A stretch of DNA of 64,000 nucleotides, from NCBI RefSeq assembly GCF_036711975.1, contig NC_091972.1, positions 14,513,001 through 14,577,000 on the forward strand. The letters run 5' to 3'. Positions within the stretch are counted from its first letter, which is position 1. Each line of letters begins with the position of its first letter. The notes under the pieces are model-generated. The model made no database searches. It was not told the origin of the DNA and was given only the letters and a program-made list of their open reading frames with translations. The stretch comes from Onthophagus taurus (taxonomy: Eukaryota; Arthropoda; Insecta; Coleoptera; Scarabaeidae). Of the stretch, positions 22,725 through 51,300 are shown piece after piece. The position numbers were made by a program, and so were the translations under genes.

Positions 22725-23995
22725 TAGGGTACGGAACTTTTGTAACAAAACGATACGATTTCCCCCCTCCACTCGTTCTCAGCAGAAAATTTCATACAAA
22801 AGTTGTTCTAAATTACATTTTAAAACGATTTTCTCAATAAAAAAAATATATAAAAATTTTTTTGAGATTATGTTCTTAATTATTGATCAAATCAAAAATT
22901 TTTATTAACAATATTTGTTTAGAATTACTTCAGGTTTGTTAACAGTGTTTGTTAATACAATTTTTTGCTAACTTGATATTTTAATTTCCCTCTGAATAGT
23001 ATGCTATCAAAATTAATTATCTCAACAATTATTGTTTTTATTAAAAAATGTTTTAAATAAAATTTGTTTCAATTTCGATTTTGAATCAATTATCTTAATA
23101 AAAATTTTTTACATCTCTATTAATTAAACATCTAAGTATAATTATGTATAAAAACGGAAAAATTATTATTTTGAGGTTATCTCCTTAATCATTGATTAAA
23201 CCAAAAAAAAAATGTTGACAAAGTTTGTTTAGAATTGTTTCAGGAACAATTTTTGTTAACATAATTTTTTTCTAACTTGAAATTTTAATTTCCCACTGAA
23301 CAGTATGCTACAAAAATTAATATTTTGAGGTTATATCCTTATTGTTGATTTAATCAAAAAATTTTGTTAACAAAATTTGTTTAGAATTACTTCAGGAACA
23401 GTGTTTGTTAATACAATTTTTTGCTAATTTGAAATTTTAATTTCCCTCTGAATAGTATGCTATCAAAATTAATTATCTCAACAATTATTGTTTTTATTAA
23501 AAAATGTTTTAAATAAAATTTGTTTCAATTTCGATTTTGAATCAATTATCTTAATAAAAAATTTTTACATCTCTATTAATTAAGCATCTAAGTATAATTA
23601 TGTATAAAAACGGAAAAATTATTATTTTGAGGTTATCTCCTTAATCATTGATTAAATCAAAAAAAAATGTTGACAAAGTTTGTTTAGAATTGTTTTAGGA
23701 ACAATTTTTGATAACACAATTTTTTTCTAACTTGAAATTTTAATTTCCCACTGAACAGTATGCTACAAAAATTAATATTTTTGAGGTTATATCCTTATTG
23801 TTGATTTACTCAAAAAATTTTGTTAACAAAATTTGTTTAGAATTACTTCAGGAACAGTGTTTGTTAATACAATTTTTTGCTAATTTGAAATTTTAATTTC
23901 CCTCTGAATAGTATGCTCTTCTTTTAATCAAGATTTTCTGAGAACGAGTGGAGGGGAGAAATCGTATCGTTTTGTTACAAAAGTTCCGTGCCCTG
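22725..23995. mobile_element. Non-autonomous hAT-type element with 8-bp target duplication
   Basis: The ends are inverted repeats of about 56 bp, beginning TAGGGTACGGAAC on the left and CAGGGCACGGAAC on the reverse-complemented right. The direct repeat ATTATAAC flanks both sides (22717-22724 and 23996-24003). An 8-bp duplication with (C/T)AGGG termini is the hAT pattern. The interior has no transposase. It is filled by about 2.3 copies of an AT-rich 456-bp tandem repeat, with unit boundaries near 23003, 23459 and 23914. Confidence 0.85.
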
Positions 23996-29217: not shown

Positions 29218-32200
29218 TTAAAACCCAGGATCCCAATCGGTTTTTTGCTTCTCCATTTTCTTTTCAAAACAAATCAAAACATCTCCTTGTTCGAACTTAA
29301 TATCTCTATCAAGTAATTGTAATCCGCATTCCAAACCTTTCTTAATCGTATCCACCTCATTCTTCAAATGTCTCATTGAGAATAACGATCCCTCATAAAT
29401 AGGACTCCCATCCCTAACCAATCTGTACATCAAATTCTTTTTAAGTACTCCTTTTGTACATCGACTTCCTGCGACAGGAACTTTTCTTTTACCCTCGTTA
29501 ATTTCGAATTGTTGTAAAACTTGAGCTTCGCCAACGATTTCTTCGACTTCTTTCATTGGTAGACGAGAATTAATTTGTTCTTTTACGTCATCGATTAATT
29601 TATAGATTACATTATGTTGTTGGATGGATAATTTTGAGTTATTTGCGTCGTTGATGATGTTTTCAGGGTTTGTAACATTAAAAGTGTAAATCACAGCATT
29701 AAAAGCTTTTGCTAATTCAACATCAGACTCTGTAATGGGACCAACAGCAAAATGAACTATATCTAGGGGACACTCCTGTGATTCATACGTTGATAGAACA
29801 TTTAATATCGCTTCTAAAGTTCCATTTACATCACATTTTAGGATTATATTCAAATGGGGTGATGTATCATCTCTTTCATATTCTGGTTTTCGCGGACCTT
29901 CAGGTCTTAATTTAAATCTCCCCAAACTCCTACGCAGTTTTAATTTTTCTTGATAAATCTTTGAATGTTCTTTTTCTTTAGCTTCAATTATCGCTAAGTT
30001 TTCTTCTTCTTTATCCTTTACGTTTTTTTCTTCGCGTGTCTTTAAAACGTTTCGAGCTTTTTTTTCTGTTTCAACTTCTAATATAATATCCCCAGCTTGG
30101 GGTAAATCCTTCCATCCTTCAATTTCAACCGGATATCCCGGTTTAACTTCGTCCAAAACTTTTCCGTCAGCATCGCGTAACACTCTCACCTTCCCCATAA
30201 CATTTCCCGCAACTAAAACAGCTGCTTTTTTTAATGTACCTCTTTGCACAATTGCTGTACATAATTTTCCACGATGTCGATCTAGTTTGCTTTCAATGAT
30301 AACGCCTTCCGCGGGTCCCGTTGGGTCTGCTTTAATTTGAAGGAGATCTGCTTGAAGAACTAAAGCCTCGGTGAGTTGATCTAAATTTTTCTTTTTTAAA
30401 GCGGAAATTGGAACAGATTGGACGTCTCCACCTTGATTTTCTACTTGAATTCCAATTTCTAAAAGCATTTGCTCCGTTCTTTGTACATTTGCTTTTGGGG
30501 CGTCTATTTTATTTATTGCGACAAGAATTGGAACTAAAAAGAAAATTAATTAAATATGTAATTCATAAAAATATTTGACCGACATCACAAGGGAGATGAA
30601 TGGATACAAAAGGGAAATGGATATAAAACTAACAAAGAAAGACAGGAGGATGGATATCCTGAAACACGCTAAAGAGTTGAAAGGAACGAACATATGGATA
30701 GATGACGAGTACTCTAAGAAAATTCAGAGAGAGATATGATTTGATGACTGAACTAAGGGAACTCATGAGGAAAGGAGTTAAAGCTCATTCACAATTCAAC
30801 AAAATAATTGTAAAGGATGAAGCAAAGAACAAGGGGAAGATAGTGGATGAAGAAGCTGGCAGGAACAATAAGCGTACAGTTTCGGAAAGATCGCCGGACG
30901 ATATGGAAAAAGAAAAAAGGAAACTACAAAGATAAAGACAACTACAAGGGACATATGGACATATGGGCGGATTTTTATGCAGAAAAGTTCAAGGATGGAA
31001 AACGGACACAAACAATGGAGGAGGAGAGAGAAAATGAGATAAGGGAAGACACTACAGACACAGCAACTGAAGAGATAACAATGGAAGAATTAGGAAGGGC
31101 AATGATGAAGTTGAAAACAGACAAGACTTGCGACAAAGACAAGATAGATTCAGAGATGATAAAATATTTGAGAATAAAAGGGAAGAAGGGGCTTCTAAGT
31201 GTATATTATAAAACCGCATGTGAGTCGGAAATAATTCCGAAAGATTGGGAAGATAACATCATACAATACATAAAAAAGGAAGCTACTCGAACTGTGAAAA
31301 TTACAGAGCCATATGCCTATCATCTACAAGTTACAAATTATACACAAAGACAATAGAAAAAAGGTCAAGAAGAGTAGTGGAAAATAAACTAGAAGATGAA
31401 CAAGCAGCATACAGAGCAAGCAAACAAACGAACGATAACATCAGAAATATCATTGAAAGGAAAATAGAGACGGGCAATGAAGTATACCTAATATTCTTGG
31501 ACCTAAAAGCAGATTTTGACATTGTTAACTGTAGTATTATATGGAAGTGTCTAGAACAACTAATGGTACCACAAACACTAACAAAAATAATTGAAAACCT
31601 GTACAAGAAAGTCAAGGGCATAGTACAAATAAAGGGAGAAACATAAAAAACTTTTGAAATGAGCAAGGGAATAAAACAAGGCGATAGCCTTGTTTTATTA
31701 AGCCTCTTGTTATTTATAATATTAATGGACAGAGTGATTAAAAATACAAGAACAAATAAATATCAAACAGTAATAGGTTATAAAAGTTTCGAACCAGTAA
31801 AAATAGATAATTTACTATATGCTGACGAATAGTGCTGATAGCAGAGAACCATAAGGCAAGGAAGTTGGGTGAAATAGGACAGAAGAAATTGAAAGATTCA
31901 TGTGATATCACGAAGATTTGTATGTGCAGTTGTGATAAAAACCATTGCATTAGACATATTTGCTATTGCATGATATATTTTGTTGTTTGCTGACAAATGA
32001 ATAACGAATTTCACTCTACTCCAAGCGAACATTACAGTAAACATTTCAAGTTATAATGCATAATTCTTATTTCATTATTTTACGAATAATTTTTATATCA
32101 AAAATGTCGAAACAATCAAGATATTTGAAATTATTAGAAATTATAAATAACATAGATGAAGAGTGTTCGGAATTTAGCGAAGAGGAACTATCTGAAAGTG

Positions 32201-35200
32201 AAGTGGATAATATAGAACAACATGATGACTCATTTGACACTACGGACGAATGTGAGACCTCAGGAAAAGAAATTGAAAACGAAAATATTTTGAATATACG
32301 TAGAGGACAAAAGAAAAAAAGACCGTTATCAAGTTCAGAAAATGAAAGTGATGTGGAACACCGAAATTGCGGCTGATGGTACAGTTTAGCAAGAAATAGA
32401 ACCAGGCTCAACACCTGGACGATCATCAATTTATAATATTTTTATTGATGTTGTAGGCCTGGCAGCATATACCAAACGAAATATTATGAAGGGGAAAGTG
32501 AGAACTGCATTTTCTTTGCTTATTGATAGTCATGTAATGGAGCATTATAAAAAAAAGCACAGTTTGAACATCTGATATGGAATAATAAATGGGGTCCCGC
32601 AAAAACCAGGAGCAGGAATGGTTTTTGTGAAATTATGCGGTTTATCAGGTTTAATAAAAAAAGTCAACAAAGTCAGCGTTTACAAACAGATCAATTTGCT
32701 CTAATTTCTGAAGTACGGTACAAATTCATCGAGAATAGCCAAAATTGTTACAAGCCTGGGAAACATGTAACTATCGATGAACAGCTTTTCTCAACCAAAG
32801 CGAGGTGTAGGTTTACGCAATATATGCCGAATAAACCGGATAAGTTTGGTATAAAATTCTGACGTCAGCACCAAATACACTATAAATCGATTTTCATATT
32901 TGGGGAAAGATGAAAACAGAGGAGCTTCATCTCCAATTGGGGTATTCGTTGTTTTCAAACTACTGGAACCACAGATAATTTCTTTGCAAGTGCATCACTA
33001 GCTGCAAAATTACTAGAAAAAAGAACCACTCTTATTGGAACTATCCGCGGAAATAAAAGAGAACTACTAAAATTCGCCAAGCAGCCGAAAGATGGAAAGA
33101 AGCGTCACATGCTTCTCAACAACATTATATAAATCGAGACATTGTTCACTTACCATTTACAAAAGTAACCCAAATAAAAAAGTGCTTCTACTGAGTTCAA
33201 AGTATAAATCTATAAGCATCGGAAAAACCGGTAAGCGTATACCTGAAACGATCAAATTCTACAATAGTACTGAATACGGTGTAGATGTAGACATGACGGA
33301 TCAGACGGCAAGAAAATACTCCGTGAAATCGAAATCGCAAAGATGGCCTGGATGGAATCAACTCATGGGTTTTATACGGAGAAACAACCAGCGAAAAAAT
33401 TTCTAGACAACATTTTTTATTTCAATTAGCTGAAGAACTTGCCGAAGATTTTCAACATGAACAACAGGAAGAAAAAGAAATTATACAAAAAACATCAACA
33501 AATTCAAGTTCGGATTCTCGTGTGCAAATGCGAAAAAGGTGTCAAATAGGTTTTTGCAAAGAAAACAAAACTACAAAAATCTGTTTCAAATGCCACAAAA
33601 TATGCGGCGAACATGAATAAACATATTATTTTTATGTTTTTTAAATTTAATAAATAAACAATTTTGAAGCGTTATTTGAAATAAATTGTTGTGTTCATGT
33701 ACCACATTGTACAAAATCAGCTAAATGATATATTCTTTCGCTATACATAGTAATATACAGTGTCCCGAAATTCAACGTCAAGCGGGCACCGTGTGAGAGG
33801 CCAACTCATACCTGTTCTGGTAAAAATAAGAAAAAAAATTCCATGTCTCTTAGTTAAGTGGTAATAGACATTTTTTGAGAATGTTAAAAATCGTTCATCA
33901 TATCTTTAGGTCAGAAATGTTGACAATTTAATAGTGATTTTTTTAATAAAGTATTTCGTATGAACCACGCTACTATAGAATCCACAAATCAAATAACAAA
34001 AGTCGTTAGTTTTCCGAAAAAAAAAATATTTGTATGATCGAGTTAAGGTTAAAAGAATTTATGGCTATTAAGTTTGACACACGATTTCTAAAAAAAGGAG
34101 TAGTACAACACCCTTGGCAAATTATTTTAAAAGATGGCATGTTTAGTCAAGATTCCAAAATGGTACAACACTTGCCATTTTTCTTTTCATAAAAAGTATT
34201 ATTACCTGTTTTTTCTGCAAAATACGCATGATTTAAAAAATTCATACTTTCGTATGTTATTTGTATTTCCTCCAAAACAATTTAACAACTTTGTTAGAAA
34301 ATGTACCACTCAATATCTACAAAGAAATGTGCTTTCAACAAGATGGTTGCCCAGTTCATTATACTTGTCGTGTACGGAATTGAATACAGAATATCTCTAA
34401 AGAGGGATCCTTTTTTTGGATTTTTCTTATTTTTACCAGAACAGGTATGGGTTAGCCTCTCGCCCGGCACCTGCTTGACGTTGAGTTTAGGGACAGCCTG
34501 TATATAACATTTTAAAGACGGGCAACTTGACCCGCTGTGGTAGGTATACATGAAGTATCGGTTGGTTTAGTGTTAAGGAATAAAAGATAGAAAAAGTATC
34601 ATCATATGAGTACTTGGGCAGTATAATATTACAAGATGTAAGGATAGATTTAGACATAAATGCAAGAATAAGGAAAACAACGTATATCATAGTCTAAACA
34701 GAACAATTTTTGGGAAGAAGGAAAGAGATAAAAAGATAAAATTGAAAGTGTACAACTTGGTTGTAGTCTCAATATTAACATATGCCAGTGAAATGAAATT
34801 TTTACGGAAAGTGGTGAGAAGCTGAAGTGGGATAGGATAAAGAAGAGTAGATCAAGAGGAGATAGCGAAATAGAGAGAAAGCAACTAAACTGGTACGCCC
34901 ACAAAACTAGAATGGAACATAACACAATAGTAAAACAGGTATTTGAAGCGTAAGAAATAAAAGAAGCGAAGAAATAATAAAGGTAAGAAAAAGAGGGGAA
35001 GACTTAGGAAAAAGTGGGAAGAAAGAATAGCAGAAGTTGGGAAGAAGAGAGGGAATGGAAGAAGTAAATGGAGGAATAGAAAAAGATTTATCCAACGCCA
35101 ACAGGCATAAGGATGAGGAGAAGAAGAAGACAAAAATAATTTTTTCAACTCACCATTGGCTTGTTTAGCCATTCGAACTGACTCCACAGTTTGTTCCATT

Positions 35201-36075
35201 ACGCCATCATCAGCAGCAACAACCAAAACAACAATATCCGTTATATTAGCCCCCCTTTCCCTCATTGAAGTGAAAGCAGCATGCCCCGGAGTATCTAAAA
35301 ACGTAACTCTAGCCCCAGAATCCAAAGAAACCGAAAAAGCTCCAATATGTTGAGTAATTCCCCCAAATTCGCGATCAACAACATTTGAGTGTCGTAAACT
35401 ATCTAAAAGGGTTGTTTTTCCATGATCAACATGTCCCATTACTGTGACGACGGGTGGTCGCCTCTGTAAAACGGAAGGATCTGGTGGAGGTCTTGGAGAA
35501 ACATCTTCGTCTTGAAAGTCTTCAGTTTCTGAAGGCTTTGGTATGATTCTCATGCGTTTTCCACTTCGTCTTATGGCGAGTTGAAGTTCTTTGAGGTCTG
35601 ATAACACGGTTGATGAGCCCTTTATGTTGTTTAAAAAGAGTTCTTCAATGTATGATGTGTTTTTATTCATTATTTCTGCTAGTTCTTTTACGGTTATGTT
35701 TCTCCAAACATCAATTACTTCTAATTTTTGCTTCGGAGAGTATTCTCTTAAATTGGGTTTTTTCTAAATTAATGATTATTTTTGAAATTAATTTTTAAGT
35801 TAGAAAATTTAATAACTTACTCTTTCTTCCGAATCTTTTCTTCGTTTTAATAAATTCGTACTATTATGGATATTTACACTTAATATACTATTAATAGTTA
35901 ACGTTTTTTCTCTTTTTAATGTTATTAACCTACAAATTAAGGTTTATTTAGAGGTTAAGTATAAAACATTAATGTTTCTTTACCTTTGTATTGAATTTAG
36001 ACTTAAAAAGGCCGATTTTTTTAAACCGGGGGTATATATTTTCGAAAATAATACGCACCGCGAATAAATCCCCAT
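29218..36075 (-). CDS. MTIF2: Mitochondrial translation initiation factor IF-2 (four exons)
   Basis: GTPase that brings initiator fMet-tRNA to the small mitochondrial ribosomal subunit. Exons in transcript order are 36075-35984, 35929-35821, 35763-35154 and 30533-29218. All are GT-AG and join in frame to 708 residues, close to the human 727. The N-terminus is basic, with serines and leucines and no acidic residues, as expected for a mitochondrial presequence. GTPase motifs are GHVDHGKTT at about residues 177-185, DTPGH at 224-228 and NKID at 278-281. The last exon carries the later IF-2 domains and ends ...DWDPGF. The third intron is 4.6 kb because of transposon insertions; the other two are 54 and 57 bases. 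The start lies 966 bp from the divergent p47 gene. Confidence 0.95.
30560..31860 (+). mobile_element. LINE reverse transcriptase, left part of a split element
   Basis: Inside the third MTIF2 intron, antisense to MTIF2. Frames at 30847-31356 and 31377-31646 encode a linker, then [43 protein letters not shown] and, near 31700, KGIKQGDSL with a YADE remnant. The wording resembles RTE-type elements. Several frameshifts. The 3' remainder lies at 34530-35140. Confidence 0.75.
32056..33720 (+). mobile_element. piggyBac-like transposase relic
   Basis: Starts with an acidic N-terminal region (open frame 32056-32376) and continues in other frames. MRFIRFNKK and [19 protein letters not shown] with [13 protein letters not shown] (32635-32862) are piggyBac DDD-domain motifs. 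[16 protein letters not shown] and [11 protein letters not shown] (33280-33370) are its C-terminal core. A cysteine-rich end (C-x4-C ... C-x2-C) follows near 33540-33610, with an AATAAA at about 33648. At least five frame breaks make it inactive. It is nested in the LINE within the MTIF2 intron. Confidence 0.85.
33758..34500 (+). mobile_element. Tc1/mariner-type internally deleted element flanked by TA
   Basis: The ends are imperfect inverted repeats of about 85 bp, CAGTGTCCCGAAATTCAACG and, reverse-complemented, CAGGCTGTCCCTAAACTCAA, with TA immediately outside each (33756-33757 and 34501-34502). Internally a short plus-strand remnant reads [15 protein letters not shown], the second catalytic-aspartate block of a mariner-like transposase. 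The first and third blocks are missing. A related copy lies at 52946-53495. Confidence 0.8.
34530..35140 (+). mobile_element. LINE 3' part, right half of the split element
   Basis: Plus-strand reading gives [20 protein letters not shown], then a YASE-like and KWDRIKKSR segment, [12 protein letters not shown], and a basic tail rich in RRGRPRKKWEER-like sequence. This is the usual end of RTE-type ORF2 and continues the element at 30560-31860. It stops about 15 bases before the MTIF2 exon boundary at 35154. Confidence 0.75.
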
Positions 36076-36454
36076 TTTAATTTAACTTATTTTAAGCCAA
36101 TATTAATAAATTTGCTTTTAAAAGTTATAGGTTATGTTATGTCATGTCGGTGATATATATACGTGTAAAACGAACGATTTTCCCCCCCTCCAAGAAATTA
36201 ATCACCTTAATTAATCTTTTCGTTAAATCTAAACTTAATTATTAGTTTTGAATTTGTTTTTTAAGTAAAAAATAATGAATTTAATTGGAGTAAACTCGAA
36301 TATTAAATATTTAAAAATAAATAATTTTTGTTATTGTTTTAAAATAACTTCCACATACATAGTATATGTAAGAAATGACAGCTGTCATTACTTAGCCCGG
36401 TATTTATAATCAGTTTCAACTTGTGTTAATAATTAAAAAGACGGGAAGAAAGTG
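35817..36454. repeat. Tandem duplication unit A (MTIF2 exons 1-2 plus shared promoter)
   Basis: Left copy of a direct duplication; the right copy is 36455-37033. This unit holds the working MTIF2 exons 1 and 2. It also holds a non-coding copy of the p47 leader (GGGAAGAAAGTG near 36443) that runs into antisense MTIF2 exon 2 sequence instead of a p47 start codon. Confidence 0.9.
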
Positions 36455-37041
36455 TTACTCTTTCTTCGTTTTAATAAACTTGTACTATTATGGATATTTA
36501 CACTTAATATACTATTAATAGTTAGCGTTTTTTTTCTTTTTAATGCTATTAACCTACAAATTAAGGTTTATTTAGAGGTTAAGGATAAAACATTAATGTT
36601 TCTTTACCTTTGTATTGAATTTAAACTTAAAAACGGCTAATAAATCCCCATTTTAATTTAACTTATTTTAAGCCAATATTAATAAATTTGCTTTTAAAAG
36701 TTATAGGTTATGTTATGTCATGTCAGTGATATATATACGTGTAAAACGAATGATTTCCCCCCCCTCCAAGAAATTAATCACCTTAATTAATCTTTTCGTT
36801 AAATCTAAACTTAATTATTAGTTTTAAATTTGTTTTTTAAGTAAAAAATGATTAATTTAATTGGAGTAAACTTGAATATTAAATATTTAAAAATAAATAA
36901 TTTTTGTTATGGTTTTAAAATAACCTCCACATACATAGTATATGTGAGAAATGACAGCTGTCATTACTCAGTCCGGTATTCATAGTAATCAGTTTCAACT
37001 TGTGTTAATAATTAAAAAGACGGGAAGAAAGTGATTAGAAT
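36076..37041. promoter_or_regulatory. Divergent promoter region between MTIF2 and p47
   Basis: 966 bp separate the two start codons, which read away from each other. The shared promoter-like core, with TATATATACGTG and an AATGACAGCTGTCATT palindrome, is present twice because of the local duplication (palindromes at about 36374-36389 and 36951-36966). No classic TATA box is placed with certainty. The assignment is inferred from position. Confidence 0.6.
36455..37033. repeat. Tandem duplication unit B (broken MTIF2 exons plus p47 leader)
   Basis: Right copy, highly similar to 35817-36454. It has lost 14 bases in the exon 2 copy and about 55 bases in the exon 1 copy. The remaining minus-strand ATG now reads only M-G-I-Y before a stop, so it cannot encode the MTIF2 N-terminus. 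Its right end forms the real 5' leader of p47, whose ATG is eight bases further on. Confidence 0.9.
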
Positions 37042-38285
37042 ATGTCAGAAAATAACGATAAACTCCAACAGTTCCTAACGGTAACAGGAATCGATGAAGA
37101 ACGTGCTCGATTTTATATGGAATCTTCCGCTTGGGATTTAGAGGTTAGGTTAACTCAACCCCTCTTAGAAAAAAAACATGACATGACAAAAACCATAAAT
37201 ATTTTATTTTTTTCATTATTTCCAGCTGGCTTTAACAAGTTTTTACGATGCAGACCCCGATCAAGAACCTGAAAGCGTCGATACCATCCAATTTTCAAAC
37301 CCTGCGGACGAAACCCCAACAGATACAACAGCAAAACCAAAAACGGAAAAACCAACAACGAGGAGCTCAAAATTTGCCACATTAAACACATTGGAATCGT
37401 CCGATGACGAAGAAGAAGGTCAGGCTTATTACGCCGGGGGTTCTGAAAATAGTGGACAACAAGTTTTGGGGCCACCGAAAAAGAAAAAAGATATTGTAGC
37501 TGAAATGTTTAAATCAGTACAAGAACACGGAGTTGAAATCTTAGATTCAGCATCAACATCTCAACCCGGAGCTTTCCGAGGGACCGGTTATCGATTAGGA
37601 CAAACAGGAAATGATTCAGTAACCGTTCCAGGTTTTGTTGAACCTTCACCTCCTATTCAGGTTACAATGAAATTGTGGAGGGAGGGCTTTAGTTTGGATA
37701 ATGGCCCATTAAGAGCTTATGATGATCCATCAAATAGAAATTTTTTGGATAGTGTAAGAAGAGGGGAAATCCCAACTGAGTTAAGGCAAGGTGTTAATGA
37801 GGTGCATTTAAGTATGGAAGATCATCGAATGGAGGGCTTTAAACAAACCTCTCATGGAAAATTAACAAAACCATTCTCTGGAACTGGGCACACTTTGGGA
37901 AGCCCGGCTCCCCCTACAATTGGTACTCCACTAAATGAAGATAAAAGTGTGAATGAAGCTCATGCTAAAAAACAAGTTAAATTGGATGAAGCACAACCAA
38001 TAACAAAGTTAGTTCATTTTGATGTTTTAAAAGAATTAATTTATTAATTGCTTTTTTTTTTTTAGTTTACAAATAAGATTAGCTGATGGATCACGATTAA
38101 TAGGTCAATTTAATAATTCTCATACAGTAGGTGAAGTTCGTTCTTTTATAATAGCTGCGAGACCTCAATACGAAACTCGAGCTTTTTCATTGTTATCGTC
38201 TTATCCAACAAAGGAATTGGATGACTCTCAGTCTTTGGAAGCCGCTGGTATATTAAATTCGGCGATAATGCAGAAATTAAAATAG
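37042..38285 (+). CDS. p47: p47 / NSFL1C, UBX-domain cofactor of p97 (three exons)
   Basis: Adaptor of the p97/VCP AAA ATPase in Golgi and ER membrane fusion. Exons 37042-37143, 37226-38007 and 38066-38285 join in frame to 367 residues (human 370). Domains in order: a UBA domain at about 1-45 (QFLTVTGIDEERARFYMESS AWDLE), an acidic and basic linker with PPKKKKDIV, the SEP domain at about 180-240 (KLWREGFSLDNGPLRAYDDP, then FLDSVRRGEIP), and the C-terminal UBX domain from about 292 (LQIRLADGSRLIGQFNNSHT) to the end. The p97-contact loop reads SYPTKEL, with Y where F is usual. The exon 2 donor is GTTAGT; using it restores TNLQIRLADG, which supports the join. AATAAATAAA near 38397 is the likely polyadenylation signal. 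Confidence 0.95.
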
Positions 38286-45300: not shown

Positions 45301-48300
45301 CATGATCAGTCTGAGGTTGAGCATGTCGACCACATAAGTTTTTCTTCTTCTCTTGCATGTCTTCACCACTTCATCCATAAAAGCAACAACATGGATATGA
45401 TGACCTGTATCAGTGGGAAATCCTTTTCTGCTATAGTGTTCCCAAACGTCTTGCCTTGGCACCTCATCAAACGCAAAGTGTATATCCAAGAAAGCCAAGT
45501 ATGCATATTTCCCTCTCCTGATCCACTTATCAGTTATACAGCGCAGGGAGAAAATGAAATCTCGCGTTTGTCGTCCTCGTCTGAAATCTGCCTGCTCCTC
45601 ATCCAGTTCTTCTTCAGTGCAAGTTCTTAGGCGCCTCTCCAAGATTATGGAGTATAGTTTGGCAACGACATTAATGGGGCATATTGATTTGTAGTTTTCA
45701 CAGCGTGTCGAGCATGTTCTTGTATATAGAGATGACTATGGTTCTTTACCAATCTGCTGATGTGCGCCCTATACTACCGCTCTGTACCGTTTGGAAGATT
45801 TCTTTAATTTCTTCGGCCAATATCATGGCTCTTGCTTTCACACCATTTAAATTTTCATGTGTTATTTTATACAAAATATTTTTGTATATCCCCAAAGAAA
45901 AAATCTAGTCATTTCAGACAGATTTAATAGCAAATTGTTAACATAAGGCTGCATGTGCTGTATTACTTAATATATTGAGGTATCTATCTGCATTTAAGTT
46001 TTCATGGTATGTCAAAAAATTCTATTATTTAAAAGGTTACACCATACATTGAATCCGAATCTTCCTTGAGAACGACTGGATATTGCATAATGTGGATTAG
46101 CAGCAGACTAAATACGTTCACTGTTATGATTAAATATTCCCGCAGTATTAACGTGAACTCCAAATGACATTTTGGCAAACAGCAGATTATTTAATTTTTC
46201 CAAATACCATCGATAAAATTCTAATCTTACAATTAGATTAGTATCTCCTCACGCTTTGAATGATTTATACGTTTTTCTTTAAAATTCGGGAGCAGCGTCT
46301 TGTTCAATTTCTCTGCAAGATGTTGATGGATATACTACAACTGTAGCCAACACAGTGACTTGATGACAAATCCGGCCATACCATTATACTCCCGTTCAAA
46401 ACTTATTACCGCAAGATCATGCAGCACGCCTACATTATGCCCACTTTTGACAAAACAAATTTCGCGAAAACGAAAATTTTCTTGACAAGATTCTGTTCAC
46501 TGATGAAGCGACGTTTACAAGACAGAATATCTTATGGCATTCTGTGAATCCACATACTGTGTGAGGGAAAGATATTTTCAACACGAGCTTAAAGTAAATA
46601 TTTGATGTGGTGTAATATCAAATTTTTTCATTGATCCATTCCCTCTCAAATTAAATGGACGTGTTTACTTAAGTTTTCTTCAAGATGATCTACAGAAGGT
46701 CTTACATGACCTACCAGACGCTCTAAAAGAAGATGTGGCTTATGCAGCATGGTGCGCCATCATATTATAGTCTTCCTGTGTGCATTTATTTAAATAAACA
46801 TTTTCCGCATCGTTGGGAAAGCCATGGAAGTGAATATGCATGGTCACAGAGAAATCCACTGGCTTTTGCAATATGGTCACATATGAAAGATATGGTGTAC
46901 AAAAACAAAATTAATTCAATCGAAGAACTGAGGCGAAAAATTCAAGATGTGTTGAGTTAATGGTGCACAGTTCGAAAATTTACTTTAAATTCTATTGTTA
47001 TTAATTAATTGTTATGATTGATGTTATTGATTTTAAATGGTAACTTTAAAAAAAAATTACTTTGAAACAATTAAAAGTAGATAACTTGGGAACTAGTAGA
47101 CTTATTGTTAGACAATTTAAGCAAAACTATCATTTTTGTGTAGAATTGAAAGCTCTTTCAGATTTGTGGTTCTAATTCACTACACCTCAACTGGCATGTT
47201 CATGACTTGAGTTATCAAACGAGCTTCAAGGACAAAGTTTCAACGTTTGTCCCGGCGCTGCTAATTTTTCCTTTCTGTTATTCCTGTCCTTTAACGTGTA
47301 ATGGTAATATCCCACATTCTGGTTGTTTCATTTATATGTTAATATCAAAATTCCGATTATTATTTATAACAATTAATGTTTATAATAAATAGTATTGTTT
47401 CTCTTTAAATAGCACTTTTTCTTTTGTATTGTTGCTCGTTTCAATAAATTAAATCTGTTCTGATTGGGCTAAAAATGCGTTACGTAATGAAACCAATGCG
47501 GTAATGAACTTCATTACGTAACTCAAATCAACTCAAATGAGTCTGGTAATGATGACTTATCCAAGCAGTCGTAGATAATAGTTATTTATGTGCCAAGTCG
47601 GTAAAGCACTTTGTCTGCCGCTAAATGCACAGTTTACTAGATAGTAGCACAATGCGTCACTTTACTGCCGCAAATGGATAGCATAAAGTATGGTTTTGCT
47701 GCCGGTTGGCGATAAAATTAATTTCTTGAAGGATCCTTGTGGAAATATCACCAATTATTAATTAAAGTATCCTCTTTTTGATGCAAAAAACCGTTTTGAA
47801 AAATCACTTTTAGTTCTTGAGAAATAAATTTTTGAAATAATCGACAATTTTTTTGAATTTTTCAATTTCCGCCGATTAAGTTTTAAAAATTCGTATAAAA
47901 TCCATTTCTTGGAATATGAGTATGAAAAGTTTCCAAAGTGTTAATAAAAGTGTCCTCTTTCCAATGAACCAACTCGTTTTCAAAAATAACTTTTAGTTTT
48001 TGAGAAAATAATATTTGAAGTTTTGATACAATTTTCGATATTGCAATTTTCATCGATAATTTTCAAAATTCGCTATAAAATTAATTTCTTGAACGATCCT
48101 TGTGGAAATATCACCAATTATTAATTATAGTATCCTCTTTTTAATGAAGCAAGCGGTTTTGAAAAATCACTTTTATTTCTTGAGAAATAAATTTTTGAAA
48201 TAATCGAAAATTTTTTCGAATTTTGCAATTTCCACCGATTAAGTTTTAAAAAATTGGTATCAAATCTATTTCCTGGAATATGAGTATGAAAATTTCCCAA

Positions 48301-51300
48301 CGTGTTAATAAGAGTGTCCTCTTTCCAATGAATCAACACGTTTTGAAAAATAACTTTTAGTTTTTGAGAAAACAATATTTGAAGTTTTGATAAAATTGTA
48401 ATTTTCATCAATAACTTACAAAATGAGTTATAAAATTCATTTCTTGAAGGTTCCTTGTGGAAATATCGCCAATTAAAGTATCCTTTTTTTAGAGTTGCTT
48501 CGTGAGTTAAGCAACTCACGAAGTTAATTTACTACTGATTAAGTAACACCTTATTTTCAAGCATGCCATAAGCTTCCCTAGCGCCCTCTAAGGGGATGAA
48601 ATTCACAACCCCTTTTATTTTTTTTATAAGAACTTTTTAACGCCATGGAATATTAACATAAAAAAATATAGGTTCTAAAGCTCATTCTTTAATGGTTCTT
48701 TCTTGTCCCTTTATTTTTTTCCTTAAAGATAATAGTTTTCGCGCATTCTAGTAAAGTTTCGCGATTAAATCTGAACCACCCTGCATTTATTAAAAAAAAA
48801 AACAGGGCGATAACAAAAAACGATAGCTTTTCCGATTTTTTTAAATCAGCAGTTTCTCAGAAAACGAGATCATGACATGTAAGTTACTTTTTTTCTATCT
48901 TGTTTAGTTCAAGAGATAGCCTATACAGATAACAAATTTAAGACACTGATTTTAAATAATTGAATATCAGTATAATATTCAATCAGATTCATAAAAAGCA
49001 ATTTCTTTCCAATTCACAAATTACTTACTTTTGATCCACATGGAATACAATGTTTCGACCTAATTTTATACAAATTATCTTCACTTTCATGACATTGACA
49101 AATACAATTAGGGCCTCCATAAGGATCATCATATTCTGGAAGAGTTATAACTTCATAAGGCTCCTCATTTGCAGGTAAAGGATCTTTAGGAATTTCAACA
49201 ACTTCCCATGAACCACTCAGCATACTAAAAATAAATTTTATCACTTTAAGTTACATATTGTTGTAATAAAATTACCTTTCCGTAGGCTTTTCATTAGGAA
49301 AAACACTTAAAAACCAATCAATTAACATCTTATTTCCTTTCAAAAGGGGCATAATAACACTTGTCACTTTTTCCATGTTAACATCAACACATTCGTTAAG
49401 TTCTGTAAGGGCTCGATAAATTTTTCTAACCTGTACGGGTTGGTCTTTAAAGTACATCTCTAATTTCATAAGAAATAAAGACATGTTACTTAAAAGTAAG
49501 TAAGGAACAAGCTTTCCAATAGATTTTGCTTGAGATGCTGTTAAAAATATTAAAAATTCTTCAGCCAAATCTGGATGTTTTGGGTTTAAAATGTTTGTTA
49601 TATTATGATATAAATTAATAACAGAGTCTTTTGCAGGTTCAAAATTGTGTAAAATTTCAATTAATTGGTGATAATCATGAATGTCAAGTTGTTCCTTTAA
49701 TTTTTCATAATAAGATTGCACGAATCTTTCAGATTTTTCTTCCTGATCCTTTTCATTAGGTGATAACATAGTAAGATTTGTTGTTAATTCTTTTAATTGT
49801 TTCGCTTTTTTCTTTTCACCTGTACAAACAACTTTTTTTCTTGGGGGCTTTATCGTTGATGAAGCAACCATTAAAGCATTAATATCCTCTTGATTATCTC
49901 TCGCAAGCATTTCATCATATTTTATCATTTCATTCTCAATTTTTTCTATATTTTCTTGAATTTCTTCTCTTTTCTCTTCATCATTGTTTTGAGATAAAGT
50001 TTGTGATTGATCGGTTTCATCAGCAAAACATGAATTTTTTTCATTCGGCTCATTTAATTCAGGACTCTCTCTTCGAGGGGTACACAAACTTGGCATACTA
50101 GGTAACATTTTTTTCATCAAATTATCCGAGTTTTTTAATGTTAAGGAATTAAACTTAAACTTTTTTAATCGCTCTTCTAATGTAATTAACTTTTTAGGTT
50201 TATGTCTAAAGTACTCCTCTAATTTTGCTGTTGGAGAACTTTGAGAACAAAACTCACTGAAATATTTTCCTGTTTCGCTTTCATTAAATAAGATTCTTTT
50301 CTTTGCTTTGGGAACCAGTGAAGGTGTGCATTTTTTAATGGGTTTTGGAAGCGAGCGTTTTTTTTTATTGGTGTAATCCTTTGATGTTTGTGGTTTATTA
50401 TTGTTATTATAAATCGGTTGAGGGGTTATCGGGCAGATTAAAATTGGTATATTTTGAAATGGCTAAAAAATATTAAGAAGAATTATAATGACAGAAATGG
50501 ACATTGTTTTGACATGAAGTTATTTAAGGTTAGAGTTTTAGTGAGAAATATTTGCGTTGGCAACAAACTTTTAAAAAAAGTTATATCGCGCCATTATCAC
50601 ATAATACAGATATATATGTATTTCCGTCTATTTTGAATAAACATAATATTTAATTCTCGAAAAAAGAAAGTTCAATATTTAATTAAAAATTTGACTAAAA
50701 AATCACTTTTAGTGCCATTATTTTTTTAAAGTTGGTAGTACTTTTACAAACCGTCAATATATAAACATAACCTATTTTTTACCTGTGGTATTTGATAAAC
50801 CGGAATAAATTGATTTGGAAGTATAGGTGTTACCAAATTTCCATTATTTTGATTTCCACGGCTATTATAAGGTGCTTTCTCAATTTCCGGGTTCAAAAAA
50901 ACTTGCCATTGATATGGTAATTCGTTAATATTTCTTTCAATCGGAGAAAGGAACCCTAATTTTTCCATCTCAATTAAAAAATGAGTTGTTTTAGGGGCTG
51001 TTCCATTTGTATAGTAATACTTAATTGGGTTCATTTCCGCTCCCGCACGTCGCTTATAACTTATAAACTTATAGAGGCGATTTGTATCTTTTGATGGTAA
51101 CATATAACGTTGAATGTAACTGCAAACATCCTTAAACTTGACTTCACCTTTTGAGTTAAGGTGATGGGGATCAGATTTTGCGAATGATTCAAATTGTTCT
51201 AAACCCAACGCGATTAATCTAACAATAAAATAAAATTAATAAGTATTACTAAAAAGCGTTTAAAACTTACTCAAGTTCTGATTTTAAAAATTCAACATTT

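Follow-up and report, generated by a model that had tools for sequence, protein, structure and literature searches.

Does a tandem duplication across the promoter region of two outward-reading genes uncouple them, give rise to extended transcripts that interfere, or have no effect? The locus described here, in a window of 64,000 nucleotides (C7:14513001-14577000; the window is the whole stretch of DNA analysed), can be used to ask this question. The case is clean and brings its own control, in that near-identical promoters stand in both inner and outer positions between a gene for mitochondrial IF2 (MTIF2) and a gene for p47. Gene structure, AT-richness and the type of core promoter suggest an insect genome.

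Two genes flank the duplicated region

The left flanking gene is read from the minus strand and is identified by its predicted product as MTIF2. The coding part of exon 1 (36075-35984, 92 nt from the ATG), exon 2 (35929-35821, 109 nt) and exon 3 (35763-35154, 610 nt) connect in frame on this strand, and the donors of exons 1 and 2 both scored 7.0 in a simple splice donor matrix. The product of exons 1 to 3 matched PDB chains of mitochondrial IF-2 (best E=2e-56, residues 72-269) and the GTP_EFTU family, and IF-2 and EF-G_D2 domains are encoded in a frame farther along (30546-29218). The whole of exons 1 and 2 falls within residues 1-71, which lie outside the best PDB match and are basic; these residues probably contain a mitochondrial targeting sequence. 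When the exon-3 protein was searched against the genome, the only full-length match was to itself, and six partial matches at 38-53% identity were probably to other translation GTPases. Plus-strand transposon remains were also found in the stretch that separates exon 3 from the following conserved frame of MTIF2 (30549-35154), including a reverse-transcriptase piece (RVT_1, 31257-31643) and a DDE_Tnp_1_7 transposase piece (32551-32859).

The right flanking gene is read from the plus strand, opens at an ATG at 37042 and encodes UBA, SEP and UBX domains; from this domain order we take it to be p47/NSFL1C. Its first coding exon (37042..37143) carries the UBA domain (UBA_4 match), ends at the donor GAG/GTTAGG and lies outside the duplicated unit, as does MTIF2 exon 3. 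A literature search for MTIF2 with NSFL1C in a licence-limited library returned nothing on a pairing of the two genes, judged by titles.

A head-to-tail tandem duplication lies between MTIF2 and p47

Copy A of the unit (35817..36454, 638 bp) contains MTIF2 exons 2 and 1, the divergent promoter and a copy of the p47 leader, while copy B (36455..37033, 579 bp) contains dead copies of the two MTIF2 exons, the divergent promoter and the p47 leader that is presumably in use. The alignment of A with B covered 576 columns with 22 substitutions (3.8%; 17 transitions and 5 transversions; K2P 0.039) and three gaps, of which 14 bp (35823-35836) and 48 bp (36009-36056) were present only in A and 3 bp (36983-36985) only in B. 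BLAST of A against B gave two blocks (E=0 and 6e-76), far beyond chance. The near-identical direct repeats reported at these positions in a preliminary description were thus borne out by both methods, and the alignment agreed with the content given there for the unit, namely MTIF2 exons 1-2, the divergent promoter and the p47 leader; the 3-bp insertion in B was absent from that description. The two copies adjoin in the same orientation, which is the arrangement of a head-to-tail tandem duplication. On the left, the unit is cut off within the 5' splice site of MTIF2 exon 2 (GTAA/GT), so that it includes 4 bases of intron 2; on the right, it stops 8 bp short of the p47 ATG.

A DNA search of the whole genome (290.8 Mb, 33 contigs) with both copies matched a single place, the A/B pair itself, a count that is a lower bound. 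In addition, copy A had no match in 20 sampled 10-kb stretches (200 kb). With one genomic place and no match in the sampled sequence, the possibility that the unit is a mobile element or a satellite was rejected. No match in the window attained the gathering threshold of an Rfam family.

These results demonstrate that the A/B repeat is genuine at the level of the assembly. An assembly artefact, in which two diverged alleles of a single-copy region were set in tandem, is unlikely. Alleles of a highly variable insect could differ by 3.8%, but B would then be an allele without a working MTIF2 first exon. Moreover, the 1.2-kb pair fits inside one long read, and the 40.8-Mb contig suggests a long-read assembly.

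The background of local repeats was sampled in the same 20 stretches (17 from contig C7 and 3 from C8; 20 of 60 planned). Direct repeats of at least 150 bp with at least 85% identity and an offset below 3 kb occurred in 6 of the 20 stretches, as multi-copy arrays in four and as spaced pairs in two, and a clean two-copy head-to-tail unit of at least 500 bp was found in none of the 20. Two further tandem repeats were observed in the window, one at 22849-23917 (period ~456-460 bp, 2.3 copies at ~95%, containing a shorter repeat unit of ~153 bp) and one at 47706-48475 (period ~363 bp, 88% identity); neither the first 460 bases of the former nor the first 363 bases of the latter had a match in the 20 sampled stretches. 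A 9-bp inverted repeat was also observed just inside the ends of the duplicated unit (35822-35830 and 36444-36452), so that the A/B junction forms a small palindrome. Among random placements in the window, 25 of 20000 reached a 9-bp inverted repeat, a figure that applies to a feature noticed post hoc. This repeat is perhaps linked to the origin of the duplication break.

MTIF2 exons are retained in copy A and dead in copy B

On the alignment and the in-frame models, the coding MTIF2 exons are retained in A and dead in B, as the preliminary description had proposed. The dead exon 1 of copy B (36608..36651, minus strand) retains its donor and, in the alignment used here, lacks 48 bp (36009-36056 of A) rather than the roughly 55 bases given earlier. 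As 48 is a multiple of 3, this deletion alone causes no frameshift; the stop in the M-G-I-Y-stop frame, which had been correctly read, arises next to the deletion, where the codon TCG reads TAG owing to the difference at 36062. The dead exon 2 (36459..36553, minus strand) lacks 14 bases, again as reported. Because the edge of the unit cuts inside the splice site, the exon-2 donor in copy B is GTAACA, which scored 1.4 compared to 7.0 for GTAAGT in copy A. Within exon 2, differences between A and B alter three residues (T/A, E/K and N/S).

Both copies carry the same predicted core promoters

A predicted p47 core promoter is present in each copy, the inner one in A (36410..36443, plus strand; TCAGTT with its A at 36412) and the outer one in B (36989..37022, plus strand; TCAGTT with its A at 36991), both with AGACG at +28. 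These calls used the Inr and DPE consensus letters. With both strands searched, TCAGTY followed by the DPE-like RGWYV at +28 occurred in the window only at 36412 and 36991, and 0.97 matches per window were expected from 100 Markov simulations. The two matches were called p47 starts because they are oriented towards p47 and stand a short way upstream of it, and the predicted Inr plus DPE start is identical in A and B. For MTIF2, strict TCAGTY plus DPE gave no minus-strand match in the window, and the looser TCAKTY plus DPE gave one candidate start per copy, at 36376 and 36952.

Both candidate MTIF2 starts lie inside a palindrome, AATGACAGCTGTCATT, at 36374..36389 in A and 36950..36965 in B. On the MTIF2 side, a TATATATA run is found on the minus strand at 36154..36161 in A, where it may serve as a TATA element, and at 36730..36737 in B, where a similar function may be supposed. 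The TATATATA run and the TGACAGCTGTCA palindrome were retained in both copies. The perfect 16-bp palindrome AATGACAGCTGTCATT occurred at two places in the genome, both in the unit, compared to 16 per strand for a reversed control pattern; a role as a general promoter motif of the genome was therefore unsupported.

In copy A, the distance from the predicted p47 start (36412) to the MTIF2 ATG (36075) is 337 bp, and from the outer predicted p47 start (36991) to the same ATG it is 916 bp. Measured in this way, from predicted p47 starts and the MTIF2 ATG, the starts lie less than 1 kb apart and the genes stand head to head. The earlier statement that each gene has one adjacent copy of the promoter was supported by the alignment together with the promoter positions.

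Substitutions between the copies along the unit

Substitutions between A and B numbered 5/99 in exon 2 with its 4 intron bases, 1/54 in MTIF2 intron 1, 3/44 in MTIF2 exon 1, 13/336 in the MTIF2 leader plus the intergenic part and 0/43 in the block with the p47 leader and start. The MTIF2 exon/intron part (9/197) did not differ from the rest (13/379) in substitution rate (Fisher P=0.50), a comparison to which 22 substitutions lend little power. Different selection on the promoter and dead-exon parts was thus unsupported. The unchanged p47 start block could reflect selection on the inner start too; by simple arithmetic, the chance of an unchanged 43-base block at 3.8% divergence is ~0.19. At an insect substitution rate of around 3e-9 per site per generation, and in the absence of gene conversion, K2P 0.039 would correspond to some 7 million generations.

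The preliminary description had suggested that two formerly co-regulated genes may have been uncoupled, and it is conceivable that the duplication was favoured for uncoupling MTIF2 from p47, with each promoter copy specialising. An adjacent copy is available to either gene, A and B are set apart by 22 substitutions and three gaps, and several of these differences lie just upstream of the p47 start (36393, 36396, 36405 and the 3-bp insertion). However, the predicted core elements are alike in both copies, and neither an excess nor a deficit of change was found in any part, which leaves this explanation improbable.

The inner promoters converge and face their own genes

The order along the DNA is MTIF2 body, A, B and p47 body, with both genes reading outward. 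The inner promoters consequently converge: the p47 start of A points through B to p47, and the MTIF2 side of B points through A to MTIF2. Because each is directed at its own gene by way of the other copy, the inner promoters can be regarded as distal promoters, and on this geometry they could yield 5'-extended mRNAs of their own genes. The preliminary description had called the inner halves back-facing and able to make only non-coding transcripts; the geometry contradicts the first point and, by permitting extended mRNAs of both p47 and MTIF2, the second. A p47-leader transcript antisense to the MTIF2 exons, also suggested there, would cover only the dead copies in B, as the working exons lie to the left of its start.

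A p47 transcript from the A start would carry 11 upstream ATGs, compared to 0 in the 51-nt leader from B. From the dinucleotides of the A-derived leader, 8.6 would be expected by chance, and there is therefore no sign of selection for them; with 11 upstream ATGs, the A-derived p47 mRNA would probably be poorly translated. The plus-strand p47 extension also contains four AATAAA hexamers, and 6 minus-strand ATGs lie between 36720 and the MTIF2 ATG. A transcript from the MTIF2 side of B would open with the exon copy that reads MGIY-stop. If its dead exon 1 were spliced to the working exon 2, the next long frame would run from the exon-3 ATG and would be without the presumed targeting part.

Such extensions raise the possibility of interference, in which the inner promoters fire and 5'-extended transcripts dampen the near promoters of p47, MTIF2 or both. 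The geometry is suitable, the predicted p47 extension holds its 11 upstream ATGs, and tandem promoters at Drosophila Adh offer a precedent, as outlined in PMC7202008. Nevertheless, the ATG count is near that expected by chance, and the four AATAAA hexamers could end the plus-strand extension early; on balance we consider interference very unlikely. Equally unlikely is a symmetric switch created by the one copying event, in which uORF-laden mRNAs from the convergent inner promoters would dampen MTIF2 and p47 alike at their near promoters. If it were true, the inner transcripts would overlap in antisense over ~300 to 540 bp (36412 to ~36700 or to 36952, according to where MTIF2 starts), the overlap would be a possible source of double-stranded RNA, and co-regulation would have turned into mutual damping.

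A neutral duplication is the most probable explanation of the locus

Taken together, we favour, with a probability of about 0.7, a neutral small tandem duplication in which the outer promoter halves drive the genes and the inner halves are redundant. A single head-to-tail duplication would have copied the presumably shared promoter region, the MTIF2 5' end and the leader of p47, and both genes are intact in the order MTIF2-A-B-p47 because both read outward from the unit. On the anatomy described above, MTIF2 would use the exons and promoter of A, and p47 presumably the promoter of B, leaving the p47 start of A and the MTIF2 side of B redundant. The MTIF2 exons of B appear to have decayed as unused sequence would, with losses of 48 and 14 bp, a stop and a splice site that has become weaker. 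Any firing of the inner starts may produce 5'-extended, weakly translated transcripts, whose interference would do no more than tune the near promoters. Copying events of this kind are ordinary, and an adaptive cause would be unnecessary for the duplication to persist.

The locus has a wider bearing. Because both genes stay intact, a tandem duplication across the promoter of outward-reading genes is a permissive route by which a pair with a single shared promoter can acquire a second. Our search of a licence-limited library found no description of a shared promoter that had been duplicated.

Comparison with known systems

Among small segmental duplications in Drosophila, 83.4% are reported to be under 500 bp, and duplications over RNA polymerase II sites or active histone marks are described as under-represented, more so when older (Li et al., 2019, PMC6380325). 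The present unit resembles those outlined there in its short copies, in a setting where divergence grows with age; unlike the typical case, it spans a whole promoter region at 3.8% divergence, which would be expected to be uncommon, although the survey dealt with a different species and with duplications that are polymorphic. Partial-gene tandem duplications, including 'dual promoter genes', are discussed by Rogers et al. (2015, PMC4503668; 2017, PMC5460883). As in the cases sketched there, a tandem duplication has relocated a 5' end and promoters; in contrast to them, both parent genes are intact here and what has been copied is a promoter region between divergent genes.

Divergently paired genes of Drosophila are characterised in PMC2670823 by the combination of Inr plus DPE with no TATA. 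MTIF2 and p47 are like such pairs in standing head to head with close predicted starts, and differ from this outline in that the presumably shared promoter region is doubled and the MTIF2 side carries the TATATATA run. Finally, long undecoded transcript isoforms (LUTIs) that dampen near promoters are described in yeast, and interference between tandem promoters is treated in PMC8153250, PMC9754628 and PMC7202008, the last with the Drosophila Adh distal promoter. Like the LUTI and Adh systems as presented in these papers, the locus has a distal start, a near promoter in between and a predicted 5'-extended leader with uORFs (for p47, with an ATG count near chance), here known from sequence alone. 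Unlike the Adh promoters, which differ in timing, the inner and outer promoters at this locus go back to a single sequence and remain almost the same.
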